NCBI RefSeq assembly: GCF_035994945.1
Contig: NZ_CP108677.1
Coordinates: 6,076,001-6,140,000 of the forward strand
Length of the DNA stretch: 64,000 nucleotides
Reading direction: 5' to 3'
DNA from: Streptomyces sp. NBC_01216
Lineage (GTDB): Bacteria > Actinomycetota > Actinomycetes > Streptomycetales > Streptomycetaceae
A program made the translations under genes and the position numbers. Shown one piece after another: positions 34,270-39,616 of the stretch. The notes under the pieces are model-generated. The model did no database searches, was not told the origin of the DNA, and saw only the letters and a program-made list of their open reading frames with translations. Positions within the stretch are counted from its first letter, which is position 1; the number at the start of each line of letters is the position of its first letter.

Positions 34270-35502
34270 ATGGCCGAGCACGTCGAGCACCCCGCCTACC
34301 CTGTCGGTCTGCGCCTCTCCGGCCGCCGTGTCGTCGTCTTCGGCGGTGGGCAGGTCGCCCAGCGACGACTGCCCGCGCTGATCGCCTCGGGCGCGGACAT
34401 CACCCTCGTCTCCCCGTCGGCCACTCCGTCCGTCGAGGCCATGGCGGAGGCCGGCGAGATCACTTGGGTCAAGCGCCGCTATCAGGACGGCGACATGGCC
34501 GACACCTGGTACGCGCTCGTCGCGACCAGCGACCCGGTCGCCAACGCCGCCGCCTCCGCCGAGGCCGAGCGGACCAGGACCTGGTGCGTGCGCTCCGACG
34601 ACGCCGAGGCCGCCACCGCCTGGACCCCGGCGACCGGCCGCAGCGAGGGAGTGACCGTCGCGGTGCTCACCGGCCACGATCCCCGCCGCTCGGCCGCCGT
34701 GCGGGACGCCATCGTGGAGGGCCTGCGCGACGGTTCCCTCGCCGCCCCGCAGCACCGCTCCCGTACGCCCTTCGTCGCCCTGGTGGGCGGTGGTCCCGGC
34801 GACCCCGACCTGATCACGGTCCGCGGACGCCGTCTGCTCGCCGAGGCGGACGTCGTCATCGCCGACCGTCTCGGACCCCGCGACCTGCTCGACGAACTCC
34901 CCCCGCACGTCGAGGTCGTCGACGCGGCGAAGATCCCCTACGGTCGTTTCATGGCCCAGGAGGCCATCAACAACGCGCTCATCGAGCACGCCAAGGCCGG
35001 GAAGTCCGTGGTCCGCCTCAAGGGCGGCGACCCCTTCGTGTTCGGCCGCGGCATGGAGGAGGCCCAGGCACTCGCCGCGGAGGGTATCGCCTGCACGGTC
35101 GTCCCCGGTATCTCCAGCTCGATCTCCGTGCCGGGCGCGGCCGGTATCCCGGTCACCCACCGGGGCGTGGCCCACGAGTTCACCGTCGTCAGCGGTCATG
35201 TCGCGCCGGACGACCCGCGGTCGCTGGTCGACTGGGCCGCGATGGCCAGGCTCACCGGCACGCTGGTGATCCTCATGGGCGTCGACAAGATCGGCAGGAT
35301 CGCCGAGGCCCTCGTCGCCCACGGCAAGGACCCCGGCACCCCGCTCGCCCTGATCCAGGAGGGCACCACGGCCGCCCAGCGCCGCGTGGACGCCACGCTG
35401 GCCACGGTCGCGGAGACGGTACGGGCTCAGGACGTCCGCCCGCCCGCCGTCATCGTCATCGGTGACGTGGTGGGCGAGGGCCCCGGCAAGCTCGTGCAGT
35501 AG
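34270..35502 (+). CDS. cobA: uroporphyrinogen-III C-methyltransferase with precorrin-2 dehydrogenase domain (CysG-like)
   Basis: A 410-residue bifunctional enzyme. Residues 8-150 are a Rossmann-type dehydrogenase/ferrochelatase domain (RRVVVFGGGQVAQRRLPALI, ALVATSDPVANA). Residues 163-405 are the SAM uroporphyrinogen methyltransferase (VALVGGGPGDPDLITVRGRR, VRLKGGDPFVFGRGMEEAQA, VVPGISSSISVPGAAGIPVT, LMGVDKIGRIAEAL). It supplies precorrin-2 for B12 and siroheme. The N-terminal domain may also oxidise it to sirohydrochlorin. Symbol cobA is given for the methylase half; cysG also fits. Confidence 0.9.
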   Translation: MAEHVEHPAYPVGLRLSGRRVVVFGGGQVAQRRLPALIASGADITLVSPSATPSVEAMAEAGEITWVKRRYQDGDMADTWYALVATSDPVANAAASAEAERTRTWCVRSDDAEAATAWTPATGRSEGVTVAVLTGHDPRRSAAVRDAIVEGLRDGSLAAPQHRSRTPFVALVGGGPGDPDLITVRGRRLLAEADVVIADRLGPRDLLDELPPHVEVVDAAKIPYGRFMAQEAINNALIEHAKAGKSVVRLKGGDPFVFGRGMEEAQALAAEGIACTVVPGISSSISVPGAAGIPVTHRGVAHEFTVVSGHVAPDDPRSLVDWAAMARLTGTLVILMGVDKIGRIAEALVAHGKDPGTPLALIQEGTTAAQRRVDATLATVAETVRAQDVRPPAVIVIGDVVGEGPGKLVQ

Positions 35503-35569
35503 CTACCACGGGTAACCGACCCCCGCCCCGCACATTGGCACCGCTCCCCGGACAAGGCAGTATCACCTC

Positions 35570-36466
35570 GTGGCCGAACTCATCACCATCGACGATCCCG
35601 ACGACCCGCGCCTGAGCGACTACACGGGCCTGACCGACGTGGAGCTCCGTCGCAGACGCGAGCCCGCGGAGGGGCTGTTCATCGCGGAGGGCGAGAAGGT
35701 CATCCGCCGGGCGCGCCAGGCAGGCTACGAGATGCGGTCCATGCTGCTCTCCGCCAAGTGGGTCGACGTCATGCGCGACGTCATCGACGAGGTACCGGCG
35801 CCCGTGTACGCCGTGCAGCCGGACCTCGCCGAGCGCGTCACCGGCTACCACGTGCACCGCGGAGCCCTCGCCTCCATGCAGCGCAAGCCGTTGCCGACCG
35901 CCGCGGAACTCCTCGGCCCGGCCCGCCGGGTCGCCGTCATGGAGTCGGCCGACGACCACACCAACATCGGCGCCATGTTGCCCTTGGGTGTGCAGGAAGG
36001 TACAGGTCAGCGCGTCGCCATCTTCGAGGACATCGTTGATCACACGAATCTGGGGGCTGCTTTCCGCAACGCGGCCGCTCTGGGCGTGGACGCCGTCTTC
36101 CTCACACCACGCTGCGCCGACCCCCTCTACCGGCGGGCCGTGAAGGTATCGATGGGCGCCGTCTTCCACGTCCCCTGGACCCGGCTGACCTCGTGGCCGG
36201 AGGACGTCGAGCTCTTCCGTCAGCACGGTTTCGTGACGGCTGCCCTGTGTCTCTCGGAGAAGTCGATCACGATTGACGAACTGGCCGCCCGCCGGCACGA
36301 GAAGCTGGCCCTGATGCTCGGCACCGAAGGCGACGGACTGTCGACCGGCGCCCTGCGCGCGGCCGATGAATGGGTCAGGATCCCGATGGCCGCGGGGGTG
36401 GACTCCCTCAACGTCGCCGCGGCCTCCGCCGTGACTTTCTATGCGACCCGCCCGCGAGGCGCCTGA
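35570..36466 (+). CDS. SpoU/TrmH-type RNA 2'-O-methyltransferase, mosaic
   Basis: A 298-residue SPOUT methyltransferase. The N-terminal half (residues 1-115: GLFIAEGEKVIRRARQAGYE) is the substrate-binding domain. The SpoU motif 1 appears twice: RVAVMESADDHTNIGA (120-135) and RVAIFEDIVDHTNLGA (148-164), separated by MLPLGVQEGTGQ. Relatives have it once. Motifs 2 and 3 (MLGTEGDGLS, IPMAAGVDSLNVAAASAV) are intact, giving the trefoil knot SAM site. Codon choice is less GC3-biased from about 36000 on. With the remnant at 38156, this suggests the 3' half was replaced by recombination. It may still be active. Confidence 0.8.
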   Translation: MAELITIDDPDDPRLSDYTGLTDVELRRRREPAEGLFIAEGEKVIRRARQAGYEMRSMLLSAKWVDVMRDVIDEVPAPVYAVQPDLAERVTGYHVHRGALASMQRKPLPTAAELLGPARRVAVMESADDHTNIGAMLPLGVQEGTGQRVAIFEDIVDHTNLGAAFRNAAALGVDAVFLTPRCADPLYRRAVKVSMGAVFHVPWTRLTSWPEDVELFRQHGFVTAALCLSEKSITIDELAARRHEKLALMLGTEGDGLSTGALRAADEWVRIPMAAGVDSLNVAAASAVTFYATRPRGA

Positions 36467-36475
36467 ACCGGCGCG

Positions 36476-36685
36476 GTGACGGCCTCGACGCTCGCCGTCG
36501 CGGCGCTGTTCGTGCGGGTGCTGGACCGTTTCCGGAAGCGGGACCGGTCACGCCTCCGCCATGTCCGCGATGGTCTCCGAGTGGCCGAGGCCACGTCGTG
36601 GCCGGCGTCCGATCGCCTGAAGGCGCCGAGGGAGCACTGGTGCCTTCCGGTCAGACCTGCCGGACGTGGACGTCGGTGGGATTGA
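36476..36685 (+). other. possible short ORF, weak
   Basis: GTG 36476 opens 69 codons, starting with a hydrophobic run (TASTLAVAALFVRVLDRFRK) and then basic residues. Its 3' end overlaps the PIN toxin gene on the other strand. There is no ribosome site and no family. Probably not a gene. Confidence 0.15.
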
Positions 36686-37136
36686 GTACGGCGAGATACG
36701 CCTCGATGTCCTCCGGGTCGCTGGTGAAGATCACCGCACTGCCATGTCTGGCGGCGGACAGGGCCACCCAGGCGTCCACTGCATCCGGCCTCTTCTTCGA
36801 TGGGAGCTTCGCCTCACCGAGAGCCGTGCCGATGCGGCGCCAGTCGGCGATGTCAGGGCCGGTGGCGCAGGCGATGCACTCGGGCCGGCCGGCGTTCGTC
36901 TCGCGCATGGGTGGTTCGGCCGTCCGCGCCTGCGGAACAGTGCAGTCCTTCAGGGTGCCGGTCAAGGCGTGAACGACCGCCGGGCGCGGCCGCCACACCT
37001 GTGCGAGTACCGGACCGAGGACGAGGGCTCGGTGGGGTGTGCGCTTGAGACCGTCGTGCAGCGCGAGAGCCTTGGCCTTGCGGTCTGCGAGGGCGATGAG
37101 CATTCCGGTGTCGTACACCGGAACTCGTGTGCTCAT
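36651..37136 (-). CDS. PIN-domain toxin (VapC-like)
   Basis: A 161-residue PIN-domain protein, a predicted metal-dependent ribonuclease. The N-terminal acidic residue is in VPVYDTGMLIALADR (Asp9). The later acidic positions are in RPDAVDAWVALSAARHG and VIFTSDPEDIEAYL, the usual C-terminal TSDxxD. Its ATG (37136) overlaps the stop of the antitoxin gene in ATGA, the normal antitoxin-first order. The pair lies in the segment inserted into the SpoU gene. Confidence 0.82.
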   Translation of the reverse strand: MSTRVPVYDTGMLIALADRKAKALALHDGLKRTPHRALVLGPVLAQVWRPRPAVVHALTGTLKDCTVPQARTAEPPMRETNAGRPECIACATGPDIADWRRIGTALGEAKLPSKKRPDAVDAWVALSAARHGSAVIFTSDPEDIEAYLAVLNPTDVHVRQV

Positions 37137-37459
37137 GCGACCTGTCCGGGTCGGGTGCTTGCGCGGTCTTCGCCGTAGACCAGATCGAGGGCGGCTTCTA
37201 CGTCGCGCCGCTCTTGCTCGGTCAACTGCCCTGCCGTCACCTTCGGCACTTCCGGGAGCGCTCCCGCCTCCGCCTCCGCCGCCGCGATAAGCGCGTCGAC
37301 TTCGGAGAACTGCTCCTCTATGGCTTCTGTCTCCGCCATCTGACGCGTCGCTGCATGCACGAGGTATGCCGAGACGTCCATGCCCGCCCGCTCGGCATGC
37401 CGCCTGATGTGCTCGGCCTGCTCCTGCTCAAGGCTGATGCTCAGTCGCGTCTTGGTCAT
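37133..37459 (-). CDS. ribbon-helix-helix antitoxin
   Basis: A 108-residue protein. The N-terminal TKTRLSISLEQEQAEHIRRH and AGMDVSAYLVHAATRQM form a ribbon-helix-helix DNA-binding domain. The acidic C-terminal half (EQFSEVDALIAAAEAEAGAL) is likely the toxin-neutralising part, and LTEQERRDVEAALDLVYGE resembles antitoxin tails. Together with the PIN gene it makes a type II toxin-antitoxin module, expected to autorepress its promoter at 37460-37500. Confidence 0.8.
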   Translation of the reverse strand: MTKTRLSISLEQEQAEHIRRHAERAGMDVSAYLVHAATRQMAETEAIEEQFSEVDALIAAAEAEAGALPEVPKVTAGQLTEQERRDVEAALDLVYGEDRASTRPGQVA

Positions 37460-37589
37460 GAAGCGAGTGTATGACGCGTATTACGGATCGCTCAACTCGC
37501 TCAAGCGGAAGTGGCGGGCTGCGTCGTGTCGACCCGGCGCAGATCTGTAGCCCGATGTGTTCGGCAGCGACAAGGAGTGGCGAGGGCCT

Positions 37590-37971
37590 GATCGTAAGCT
37601 TGACCGCCCCGAGATCAACTTCGGTGTCGGTCGCCTGTTGGCCGGGCCTCGGCGTCTGGAAGCAGACCTTCCAATTCCGATCGAGTACCCGGTTCCGGCC
37701 ACGGCCGAGCGAGTCATGAGATGTTACGAGGAAGCCGGCAGCTCGCGCGGCGTCCTGGGCGCTCTGCGACCCCTTGCCGACAAGATCGGGAAGCTCCGCC
37801 ATCTTCGCCGCTTCGGTGGTGGCTGGGGTAGTTGGCGCCGCTTCGGTGGGAGCAGGCGTGACGGGCACCGTGGTTTCAGTCGGCGGTGCGGCGCCCCTGG
37901 GGTCTTCGTCCCCGCACGGTGAGCGACAGAAGGGCAACGACGCTGAGGAGTGCTTTGGCGTGGTTTCGCAT
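37590..37971 (-). pseudogene. PASTA-domain lipoprotein, frameshifted in its signal peptide
   Basis: ATG 37971 on the minus strand starts MRNHAKALLSVVALLSLTV, a lipoprotein signal. Just after it the frame breaks: the lipobox Cys and the mature part (CGDEDPRG, a Thr/Pro/Ala linker, then LPDLVGKGSQSAQDAARAAG and RVLDRNWKVCFQTPRPGQQ) are in another frame, as if two bases of an LTAC lipobox were lost. The mature part is a PASTA-like domain with the conserved DRNWKVCxQTP. Beyond about 37590 the tail is not family-like. Probably non-functional, or affected by a sequencing error. Confidence 0.5.
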
Positions 37972-38123
37972 GTCGTGATGGTGCCGACCTACCCGACTAC
38001 CGCATGCAGACAGGGCCGCATATTCGGCAGTTGTTGCAGAGTGCCACGGATGGTGGGCCGAAGTGAAGCTCCCAATGAGGTTCCCTGAGTTGACAACGAG
38101 ACCCGTACATTGGAGGCGTCCCG

Positions 38124-38270
38124 ATGACGATCGTCTACGACCGCACGAAGACCGAGCCGCCGCGGCCGTCGCCTTCTACGCGGTCGCCTCGGGCCGCCCC
38201 CAGGACCAGACCGGCTCCTGACGCCGTCCCGTCGTTCCCGGCGGGCGCGCGACGGGCGCTCTACCCCTGA
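38124..38270 (+). pseudogene. truncated gene start at insertion junction
   Basis: ATG 38124 follows TTGGAGG at a proper distance and opens MTIVYDRTKTE, then runs into low-quality Pro/Arg/Ser-rich residues from codon 12. The switch coincides with the start of the SpoU C-terminal remnant in another frame. This is best read as a gene start fused to unrelated DNA. Confidence 0.35.
38156..38221 (+). pseudogene. displaced C-terminus of a SpoU methyltransferase
   Basis: Twenty-one codons plus TGA read AAAAVAFYAVASGRPQDQTG and a final S. This closely matches the usual end of Streptomyces SpoU/TrmH proteins (the segment after DSLN-V) and aligns with AAASAVTFYATRPRGA at the end of the gene at 35570. 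No SpoU sequence precedes it locally. It is most simply the original 3' end of that gene, pushed about 2.2 kb downstream. Confidence 0.6.
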
Positions 38271-39421
38271 AGCGCCTGCGCCGCCGCGATGCCCAGGGCC
38301 ACGACCAGCGTCACCACGACGAAGACGAACAGCCGCTGGCGCAGCAGGCGCGGATGAGCGGGCCGCCGGCCGGTGGAGGTGGTGCGCCCGCCCGCCCGGG
38401 AGGGAACGGGCCGGCCGTTGGGCCGCGAGGGCGCGGGGCGTGATCCGCCGCCGGTGCGGGGAGCGGACGGGCGGGAGGCGGGCCCCTGCCCCTGCGCGCG
38501 GCCCTGGGTGGGGTGCTCGGTGTACCGCTCGGTCGGACGGTTCTCCGCGGCCTGTTCCGCGCGCTCCCGCTGCGCCGGAGGCCGGGACGCCGGCAGGCCC
38601 TGCGCCTCGCGCGCCGCGATCTCCTTCAGCCGCATGGACAGCTGGAGCGTGCTGGGGCGCTCCTCCGGGTCCTTCGCCAGACAGGCCCGTACGAGCGGGG
38701 CCAGCGCGTCCGGCACACCGTGCAGCAGCGGCTCCTCGTGGACCACCCGGTAGAGCATCACCTCGGAACTTCCGTGCCCGAACGGAGAGTCCGCCATCGC
38801 CGCGTAGGCAAGGGTGGCGCCGAGCGAGAAGACGTCCGTGGCAGGGGTGACAGCCGCGCCGCGCACCTGCTCGGGGGCGAGGAATCCGGGGGAGCCGACG
38901 GCGGTGCCCACGTGAGTGAGGGTGCTGGCACCGGTGGCCCAGGCGATGCCGAAGTCGATGATCCGCGGCCCTTTGGGGGAGAGCAGGATGTTCGACGGCT
39001 TGAGGTCTCGGTGGACGACCCCGGCCTCGTGGACGGCGACCAGGCCCTCCGAGAGCGCCGCGCCGATCGCGGCGACGTCGGCCGCCCGCAGGGGTCCCTC
39101 CTCGGCGACACGGTCGTGCAGGGACGGACCGGGCACGTACTGGGTCGCGAACCAGGGGCGCTCGGCCTCCAGATCGGCGGCGACCAGGCGGGCGGTGCAG
39201 CCGCCCCGGATGCGCCGGGCGGCGGACACCTCCCGGGCGAACCGGGAGCGGAACTCCTGGTCCTCGGCCAGGTCGGGGCGGATCACCTTCAGCGCCACCC
39301 GCTGCCCGCGCCGGTCGGACCCCAGGTAGACGACCCCCATACCGCCCGCGCCGAGCCGCCGGTGGAGCCGGAACGACCCGACGATCCGCGGATCCTCGCG
39401 CCGGAGCCGCATCATCGCCAT
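38261..39421 (-). CDS. Hanks-type Ser/Thr protein kinase
   Basis: A 386-residue membrane kinase. Kinase domain, residues 15-275: GAGGMG P-loop (24-29), ATP Lys45 in ALKVI, VVHRDLKPSNILL (catalytic Asp139), DFG (156-158), and GSPGFLAPEQVRG. A Pro/Arg/Ser-rich linker (285-360) leads to one transmembrane helix near the C-terminus (LFVFVVVTLVVALGIAAA). There is almost no extracellular part, so no PASTA-type sensor. ATG 39421 is preferred; the upstream ATG at 39451 adds a short basic tail. Confidence 0.9.
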   Translation of the reverse strand: MAMMRLRREDPRIVGSFRLHRRLGAGGMGVVYLGSDRRGQRVALKVIRPDLAEDQEFRSRFAREVSAARRIRGGCTARLVAADLEAERPWFATQYVPGPSLHDRVAEEGPLRAADVAAIGAALSEGLVAVHEAGVVHRDLKPSNILLSPKGPRIIDFGIAWATGASTLTHVGTAVGSPGFLAPEQVRGAAVTPATDVFSLGATLAYAAMADSPFGHGSSEVMLYRVVHEEPLLHGVPDALAPLVRACLAKDPEERPSTLQLSMRLKEIAAREAQGLPASRPPAQRERAEQAAENRPTERYTEHPTQGRAQGQGPASRPSAPRTGGGSRPAPSRPNGRPVPSRAGGRTTSTGRRPAHPRLLRQRLFVFVVVTLVVALGIAAAQALQG

Positions 39422-39616
39422 GTCCGTCCCCTCGTCCGTTCGACGAGGCACAGCTTACGTATCGGCGCCCCGGCACGCTCATAGGCCGCGCCCTCGCCGC
39501 CGCATCGATTGTCAGTGCTGAGGAGGACACTTGAGGGGTGGTCAGGACGCCGCCCACGGCGGACGGCTCGGCCGCGGCATTTTCCAATGTCCGTTCACAG
39601 GAGGGGGATTGGACCG

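Follow-up and report, generated by a model that had tools for sequence, protein, structure and literature searches.

An apparent phage attachment-site scar within a chimeric spoU/trmH gene of Streptomyces

A chimeric spoU/trmH gene

The stretch of DNA analysed here (the window; 64 000 nucleotides of contig NZ_CP108677.1 of Streptomyces sp. NBC_01216, with positions counted from its first nucleotide) contains a spoU/trmH methyltransferase gene whose two halves differ in origin; its features are collected in Table 1. The window genome is G000 in our set, in which G and L numbers denote genomes and loci. A sequence-only reading had noted two copies of SpoU motif 1 in this gene and proposed that foreign DNA had entered it and supplied a new 3′ half in frame. 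Both copies were confirmed, the first comprising the left part of the motif only: copy one, VAVMESADDHTNIGAM, occupies about residues 121–136, and copy two, VAIFEDIVDHTNLGAAFRNAAALG, starts at residue 148. Comparison with the native-type orthologs of the genus (40 related genomes) separates the two parts, since residues 2–136 are 82–93% identical to these orthologs and the C-terminal part (from about residue 153–157 to 293) is just 64–69% identical to the same proteins. The N-half and C-half matches overlap in the orthologs because these have one motif 1 and not two. Matches of 78–80% identity over nearly the full length in two genomes (G002 and G021) were the first hint in the sequence comparisons that the foreign half is not confined to one strain.

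The assignment of the protein to the TrmH/SpoU (SPOUT) group is given by PF00588, found at residues 150–291 with 117 bits (cut-off 29.7), and solved SPOUT enzymes match inside residues 139–296. For the N-terminal substrate-binding domain, PF22435 scored 25.9 bits, under its cut-off of 27, and a precomputed annotation of that domain is present for many close homologs. The other matches to the chimeric protein in its own genome were 28–32% identical, among the matches listed.

The ratio of nonsynonymous to synonymous substitution rates (dN/dS) was computed for 11 pairs of scarred genes, i.e. genes with a doubled motif 1 or a decayed linker (see below); because pairs share members they are not independent. 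It ranged from 0 to 0.18 in the N half, from 0.30 to 0.73 in the linker and from 0.07 to 0.23 in the catalytic half. By these values, both fused halves are under purifying selection and the linker far less so; the scar drifts. Such selection on both halves, together with the lack of another close ortholog in the genome, supports, short of proof, the proposal that the host keeps a working enzyme; the fused SpoU methyltransferase is presumably functional. A predicted structure of the fused protein (from 46 sequences) had a mean predicted local distance difference test (pLDDT) score of 69.6, with values below 50 in the scar linker (residues 119–143) and of 51–93 in ten-residue blocks of the catalytic half; this model lends the fusion weak backing.

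The joint as a predicted attachment site

When positions 35400–38400 were compared at the DNA level with 50 697 phage records, five records matched, and of the whole region only the methyltransferase part did so. Three of the five are the Streptomyces phages Kamino and Sitrop, which match over 36003–36448 with 70% identity, and two are unannotated metagenome sequences. The matching part of Kamino is a free-standing gene with the annotation TrmH-family methyltransferase, and the next gene, which is divergent, encodes a serine integrase. PF00588 extends across most of the methyltransferase gene, so that of the two domains the phage has only the catalytic one; the integrase has PF00239 and PF07508 (resolvase and recombinase domains). 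In Sitrop the SPOUT domain likewise adjoins the integrase; it was found in the DNA, no gene being annotated there in the record. At the amino acid level, the catalytic domain of the window is 68–69% identical to the Kamino and Sitrop domains.

By the start of the integrase gene lies a 48-bp sequence that we predict to be the phage attachment site (attP). It reads GTAGACC-N16-GG-N16-GGTCTAC in Kamino and phiScoe45, and GTGTACC-N16-GG-N16-GGTACAC in Sitrop, Saftant, phiScoe25 and Pavo; its arms in Kamino and Sitrop form a perfect 7-base inverted repeat centred on GG. Among ten relatives inspected besides these two phages, a perfect attP of this type is present in phiScoe45, Saftant, phiScoe25 and Pavo, and one with 6/7 arm pairs in Caliburn and phiScoe23; phiScoe10, Alsaber, Amela and Verse have a GGGCGC core with no clear 7-base arms at that spacing. 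The 48-bp sequence of Saftant is identical to that of Sitrop. The attP pattern was found at 3 loci in viral contigs, namely Sitrop, a 48 883-base contig of Saftant's length, and a third locus that gave no integrase or domain match. A search of viral contigs for the exact donor with the attP half present in the scar gave 5 loci, none with the domain, and these were taken as chance matches.

The GG forms bases 1 and 2 of a glycine codon both as read in the phages (NVGAF, HVGAW) and as read in motif 1 of the host (HTNIGA). Because it has the same codon position in phage and host, recombination at GG yields an in-frame fusion. Downstream of the GG, the joint in the window carries an arm at the predicted offset (+18) that matches the Kamino arm at 5/7 bases (offset +36 also gives 5/7). 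With the Kamino arm as reference and the offset counted from the host core, the +18 score is 7/7 in G408 and G409, 6/7 in G170, G105, G324 and G158, 5/7 in G000, G085, G194 and G394, 4/7 in G173 and 3 or 4/7 in G374. Thus 10 of the 12 scarred genes have 5–7 of 7 arm bases at +18 (mean over other offsets 1.6–1.9), and +18 is the unmatched best offset in 8 of the 12, whereas all 25 native genes compared have 1/7 there. The phage flank bearing GGTCAG also recurs in the scars of host genes. The same kind of junction, with an att half-site, therefore occurs in other genomes, as the sequence-only reading had suggested looking for, and the half-site at the joint bears out its view that the foreign half was supplied in frame by DNA that entered the resident gene. 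The joint resembles the left junction (attL) that a Camvirus-type serine integrase would produce by acting on a bacterial attachment site (attB) in motif 1 of spoU.

The displaced native 3′ half

If spoU was cut by integration, its native 3′ half is expected beyond the insert, and this is what two other genomes show. In G170 it lies at L131, 13983–14408, and is 91% like the native reference; in G408 (S. adelaidensis CAP261) it lies at L201, 8647–9066, and is 88% like it. Entry inside the resident gene is thereby supported. Ahead of the core of the right junction (attR) in G408 stands the left arm known from the Kamino attP, GTAGACC, at a spacing of 18 rather than 16. Further traces were found in G409 (Streptomyces sp. 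A1277), where the fused gene and a native piece lie near two contig ends, in G158 (a decayed native tail of 48 codons, E 3e-14) and in G324 (perhaps 14 codons, E 0.18).

In the window, the peptide encoded at 38156–38221 (AAAAVAFYAVASGRPQDQTGS, followed by a stop), which had been taken for the original C-terminus standing alone, indeed matches native SpoU (93% over 15 residues, E 6e-4, tblastn) and aligns to positions 135–149 of the 151-residue native catalytic half. About 120 native residues are missing ahead of it, so deletion of 35975–38155, which had been suggested as a test, would not restore the native gene. A deletion joint is presumed at 38155/38156.

Distribution of scars and of the phage-type domain

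With the catalytic half of the window gene as query, 377 of 392 Streptomyces genomes matched at E 1e-30. A phage-type domain (at least 72% identity and at least 217 bits) is present in 41 of the 377, the window included; the remaining genomes reach at most 68% identity and 212 bits among the matches listed. A visible scar (doubled motif or decayed linker) was seen in 10 of the 41 phage-type genes (G000, G324, G105, G158, G374, G394, G170, G085, G194 and G173). In the other 31 the two half-matches overlap, which is the pattern of a one-motif gene; linkers could be extracted from 24 of them and are short or unlike the scar. A pattern for fresh scars found 54 loci in 84 980 species genomes; four are in Streptomyces, three of these being scars, G170 among them. 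The fourth (MUM 178J, L167) has no spoU match within 8 kb and was taken as chance.

Doubled motifs in strains without the insert would speak against the reading given above, and such genes exist (G194, G374, G394 and G173), but the first motif has decayed in each; we read them as older scars whose cargo was never present or has been lost. A survey of the best 120 of 7692 homologs from a set of 5.8 billion proteins (the first being the window protein itself) gave a similar gradation: the first motif was kept in 57, an att-like linker in 30 and both in 25, and 58 had neither feature, counting 12 that could not be parsed. Intermediate or short linkers are found in P0072, P0073, P0088, P0092 and P0109. 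Judging from these sequences, some of the one-motif phage-type genes are possibly end points of scar decay.

In a tree of catalytic halves (102 rows, midpoint rooting), the phage-type domains, including those of Kamino and Sitrop, form one group (support 99/92) separate from the native halves, and within it the domains of G000, G324, G105, G158 and G408 form one small group (95/91). The host tree was built from cobA, the N half and the kinase gene (82 rows with cobA and the N half; one support measure), and there the same five genomes fall among different native-bearing relatives: G105 with G079, G152 and G209, G324 with G012 and the phage-type G061, G408 with G009, G022 and others, and G000 and G158 with G004, G015 and others. 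One tight group of domains in scattered hosts means that several lineages probably received near-identical elements. The host tree requires at least 13 changes between native and phage-type states, with G406 and G229 treated as unknown. In the two latter genomes (L128 and L129) the catalytic half of spoU is 66–67% identical to native and phage type alike, and branches beside the phage-type group.

The phage-type domain may also be an old Streptomyces allele that phages acquired, in which case the one-motif genes would owe nothing to phages. The early-branching hosts G088, G052, G345, G128 and G150 carry the phage type, 31 of the 41 phage-type genes are without a scar, and there are phage relatives with the same attP that lack the domain. 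Such an origin merits serious consideration, with its chances somewhat short of even. It concerns, however, the first origin of the domain alone: the scarred genes still contain phage att sequence between their halves, and the graded decay and trimming of the linker in close homologs suggest that some one-motif genes are healed scars.

Neighbouring genes and cargo

The insert of the window lies between two conserved neighbours of spoU (Table 1), and 2.2 kb separate the scar from the kinase gene. Its G+C content is 0.64–0.67 at 37000–38250, as against 0.69–0.70 just before and at least 0.73 after. The pair of genes described earlier as a PIN and ribbon-helix-helix (RHH) toxin–antitoxin module, and the PASTA gene beside it, are plausible as named, though their Pfam matches are just or otherwise below the cut-offs; the putative toxin and antitoxin genes are adjacent and make up a candidate VapBC-type pair. 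That this pair was part of the incoming DNA was not borne out. The block 36650–37495 occurs with 71–81% identity in at least 27 other Streptomyces genomes, and the rest of the insert had no match at the 23 compared loci with the block. Since it recurs without the rest of the insert, the block has the look of an independent module; the cargo of other scars is quite different.

Table 1. Features of the spoU locus in the window
Feature	Coordinates	Strand	Basis or remark
Chimeric spoU/trmH gene, 298 amino acids	35570..36466	+	Only close ortholog found in the window genome
Resident half from the host, with N-terminal domain, linker and the left portion of motif 1 (left half of predicted attB)	35570..35970	+	
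Predicted crossover dinucleotide GG	35969..35970	+	Opens a Gly codon in host and phage; centre of 48-bp attP
attP-derived right half-site, GG-N16-GGTGTGC	35969..35993	+	Arm at 35987–35993; Kamino arm GGTCTAC
Phage flank adjoining attP, with GGTCAG	35994..36010	+	Sequence comparison with Kamino, Sitrop, Saftant and phiScoe25
Phage-type SPOUT catalytic domain: complete motif 1, and motifs 2 and 3	36011..36466	+	
Terminal 21 codons and stop codon of the displaced native spoU; what is left of the attR side	38156..38221	+	tblastn
Start of truncated gene abutting the native spoU tail	38124..38155	+	Reading frame; inference
cobA-like gene, conserved left neighbour	34270..35502	+	tblastn, adjoins spoU in fetched loci; function named by eye
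Ser/Thr protein kinase gene, conserved right neighbour	38261..39451	-	89–99% identity in loci reaching the kinase
PIN-like putative toxin	36651..37136	-	PF01850, E 0.005, below cut-off
RHH-like putative antitoxin	37133..37459	-	NikA-like PF21983, 26.8 bits (cut-off 27)
Broken PASTA-domain gene	37428..37937	-	PF03793, 22.9 bits (cut-off 23.2); frame runs into antitoxin start

Between scar and native 3′ half, G170 (L131:2686–13949) has a type I-E clustered regularly interspaced short palindromic repeat (CRISPR)-Cas system (cas3, cas8e, cas11e, cas7e, cas5e, cas6e, cas1 and cas2) with an array of 61-base-spaced repeats on each side. In G085 (L132/L133) about 35 kb separate scar and kinase gene and contain ketosynthase, glycosyltransferase and flavin adenine dinucleotide (FAD)-oxidase genes; this cargo is of aromatic-polyketide and deoxysugar type, partly as named by eye. 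The scar of G105 (L134:2290–11910) is followed by about 11 kb of capsule/polyglutamate-type genes (PGA_cap, CapC, Mur ligase and NlpC/P60), where transposase-like pieces were also seen by eye. Carbamoyltransferase, GDSL and binding-protein pieces are found in G158, and a 2-oxoglutarate (2OG) oxygenase gene and a pRiA4b ORF3-like gene in G408; G194, G374, G394 and G173 have less than 1 kb between scar and kinase. At one native-type locus (L237, G361), a second kinase-like gene with 53% identity lies between spoU and the conserved kinase gene.

At least 2 kb precede the kinase gene in 6 of 10 evaluable scars and in 1 of 24 native loci (Fisher P = 0.001), as well as in 4 of 30 one-motif phage-type loci; these counts leave aside loci at contig ends (scars G324 and G409, native G209 and one-motif G150), and 19 of the 24 native loci were taken from the listed native matches, so that the sample is not random and the loci share descent. 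This excess, and the fact that in G170 and G408 scar and native 3′ half surround cargo in which no integrase was noticed, would fit integrase-less islands mobilized in trans by a phage integrase via the same att sites. We regard such mobilization as unlikely, though well worth bearing in mind: decay of a prophage followed by later insertions gives the same picture, an intact left arm of attR is present in neither G170 nor G408, and the comparison has the weaknesses just given.

Discussion

In our view the window very probably preserves the attL of an old integration of a Kamino/Sitrop-type phage into the resident spoU/trmH gene, after which the phage was lost and its half of the gene was kept. 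The gene-end-replacing integration put forward earlier is thus supported and made specific, as an apparent site-specific phage integration; it is recurrent, apparently phage-made, replaces the catalytic half of a host enzyme, and is more general than had been seen from one stretch. We infer the following order of events. A serine integrase of the phage would recombine at the GG in motif 1, at the boundary between the N-terminal and SPOUT domains. The phage attP would lie at the 5′ end of a stretch that encodes a complete SPOUT domain in the reading frame of the host gene, so that integration would cut the host gene and at once rebuild it from the host N-half, a short att linker and the phage catalytic domain. 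The native catalytic domain would be displaced to the far side (attR), its start lost. A later deletion would have removed the prophage and cut the native 3′ half down to 21 codons; the local cargo (the toxin–antitoxin-like pair and the broken PASTA gene) would have remained or have arrived later. Selection would have retained the fused gene, which may in turn protect the insert from counter-selection.

Several observations weigh against this interpretation. In the arm test, +36 ties with +18 in G170 and G000, G173 and G374 are decayed and uninformative, and the position of the core is ambiguous in G374. The test is partly post hoc, the spacing having been noticed first in Kamino and G408, and the scarred genes are related by descent; for these two reasons no probability is given for it. 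The Pavo region holds a second perfect 7-base inverted pair with a different centre. The phage domains share only about 69% identity with that of the window, which means that the donor is unsampled, and the 392 Streptomyces genomes yielded no near relative of the Kamino integrase (31 had matches at E 1e-40, with 33–42% identity among the matches listed). No intact prophage within spoU was found, and no integrase or structural gene was noticed in the 1.7 kb at 36467–38155 of the window. In the cargo of the scars, too, no phage-type integrase was noticed in the part of the open reading frames scanned with Pfam or PADLOC. As to the right junction, attR is gone from the window, where just 21 native codons remain, and G170 has no recognizable left arm of attR. 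A pattern for attR with an intact left arm had matches in 31 of the 392 genomes, none at known spoU loci; they were taken as chance because a reversed control matched too. The strongest point concerns the rescue of the gene by the phage domain. A related integrase (E 1e-60) occurs in 76 phage records, and the SPOUT domain only in those of Kamino and Sitrop (three records); a protein search found none in the ten relatives inspected. To judge from their attP, domain-less relatives should use the same site and leave spoU cut, unless lysogeny at this site does not occur.

Some of these points would suit another integrative element, such as an integrative and conjugative element (ICE) or a genomic island encoding a related serine integrase, as the maker of the scars: none of the sequences searched is the exact donor, no phage structural genes were noticed in the cargo, and ICEs also use serine integrases, according to the available part of PMC3218068. 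It appears quite improbable, given that attP, integrase and domain were found together only in Kamino and Sitrop, that no plasmid record matched the integrase at E 1e-60, and that the GGTCAG flank adjoining attP in the phages is seen again in the scars. A DNA search of the plasmid collection gave four matches (one annotated RNA methyltransferase, one unannotated match in the spoU region and two short ones), none retained as a candidate. Most improbable of all is a homologous exchange of the 3′ part of spoU with a distant allele, combined with an unrelated insertion downstream. In its favour, the phage-type domain is homologous to SpoU, and 31 of the 41 phage-type genes look like ordinary one-motif alleles, to which such an exchange may still apply. 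For the scarred genes it is already disfavoured: a simple swap accounts neither for the second copy of the motif and the phage att half-site at a constant distance, nor for the native 3′ half that lies beyond the cargo in G170 and G408.

Beyond the single phage integration that we favour for the window, a broader scheme of domain-replacing lysogeny may be considered, tentatively and with rather less than even confidence. A group of Streptomyces phages would use the domain boundary of a host RNA methyltransferase as attB and bring along a spare catalytic domain in frame with attP, each integration swapping the catalytic half; Streptomyces would repeatedly have kept the phage half, and the emptied site would have received defence and biosynthetic cargo, some of it possibly moved in trans. 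If this is true, part of Streptomyces runs its SpoU enzyme on a phage-delivered domain.

The available text of the Kamino paper (PMC11536984) names the serine integrase and suggests its use of an attP; attB and TrmH do not occur in that text, and neither attB nor integrase occurs in that of the Sitrop paper (PMC8407746). No spoU target is named in the parts available of PMC11302927, PMC10656467, PMC3218068, PMC5311408 and PMC4111918, and none of the titles and abstract openings covered, most subscription journals lying outside that coverage, reports spoU as a site of these phages. As far as the accessible part of PMC10276819 goes, attP was identified there for phiJoe-like phages only, and the group of phiScoe10, 23, 25, 45 and 56 was left out; the present analysis offers a predicted attP and attB for this group of Streptomyces phage integrases. 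The predicted site could serve as a new integration site for genetic tools, and it shows a way in which a phage may use a mid-gene site without destroying the gene. Host genes that kept the incoming domain provide a graded record of fresh, decayed and trimmed linkers, at one locus where CRISPR-Cas, capsule-like and polyketide genes occur behind such scars.

Elements that integrate into icd, mnmE or rlmH restore the gene end, rebuilding a nearly identical end of the target protein gene. In the window the gene end is also rebuilt, but about half of the protein is replaced by a diverged domain. The R4-like Streptomyces phage phiJoe is similar in having a serine integrase, a putative GG crossover and an attB inside a protein gene, which in several genomes is occupied by mobile elements of varying content (PMC5311408, as available). 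Its site, however, lies 74 bp from the end of a SCO2606-like gene, with no replacement domain described in that part of the paper, whereas the site in the window is in mid-gene and a whole catalytic domain would be delivered. A further parallel is the tRNA-dependent lysogeny of mycobacteriophages (PMC10865867, from the text available), where a needed host gene is likewise broken and the phage supplies a replacement; there, however, the replacement is a separate tRNA gene and the enzyme a tyrosine integrase, and in the window it would be an in-frame protein fusion made by a serine integrase.

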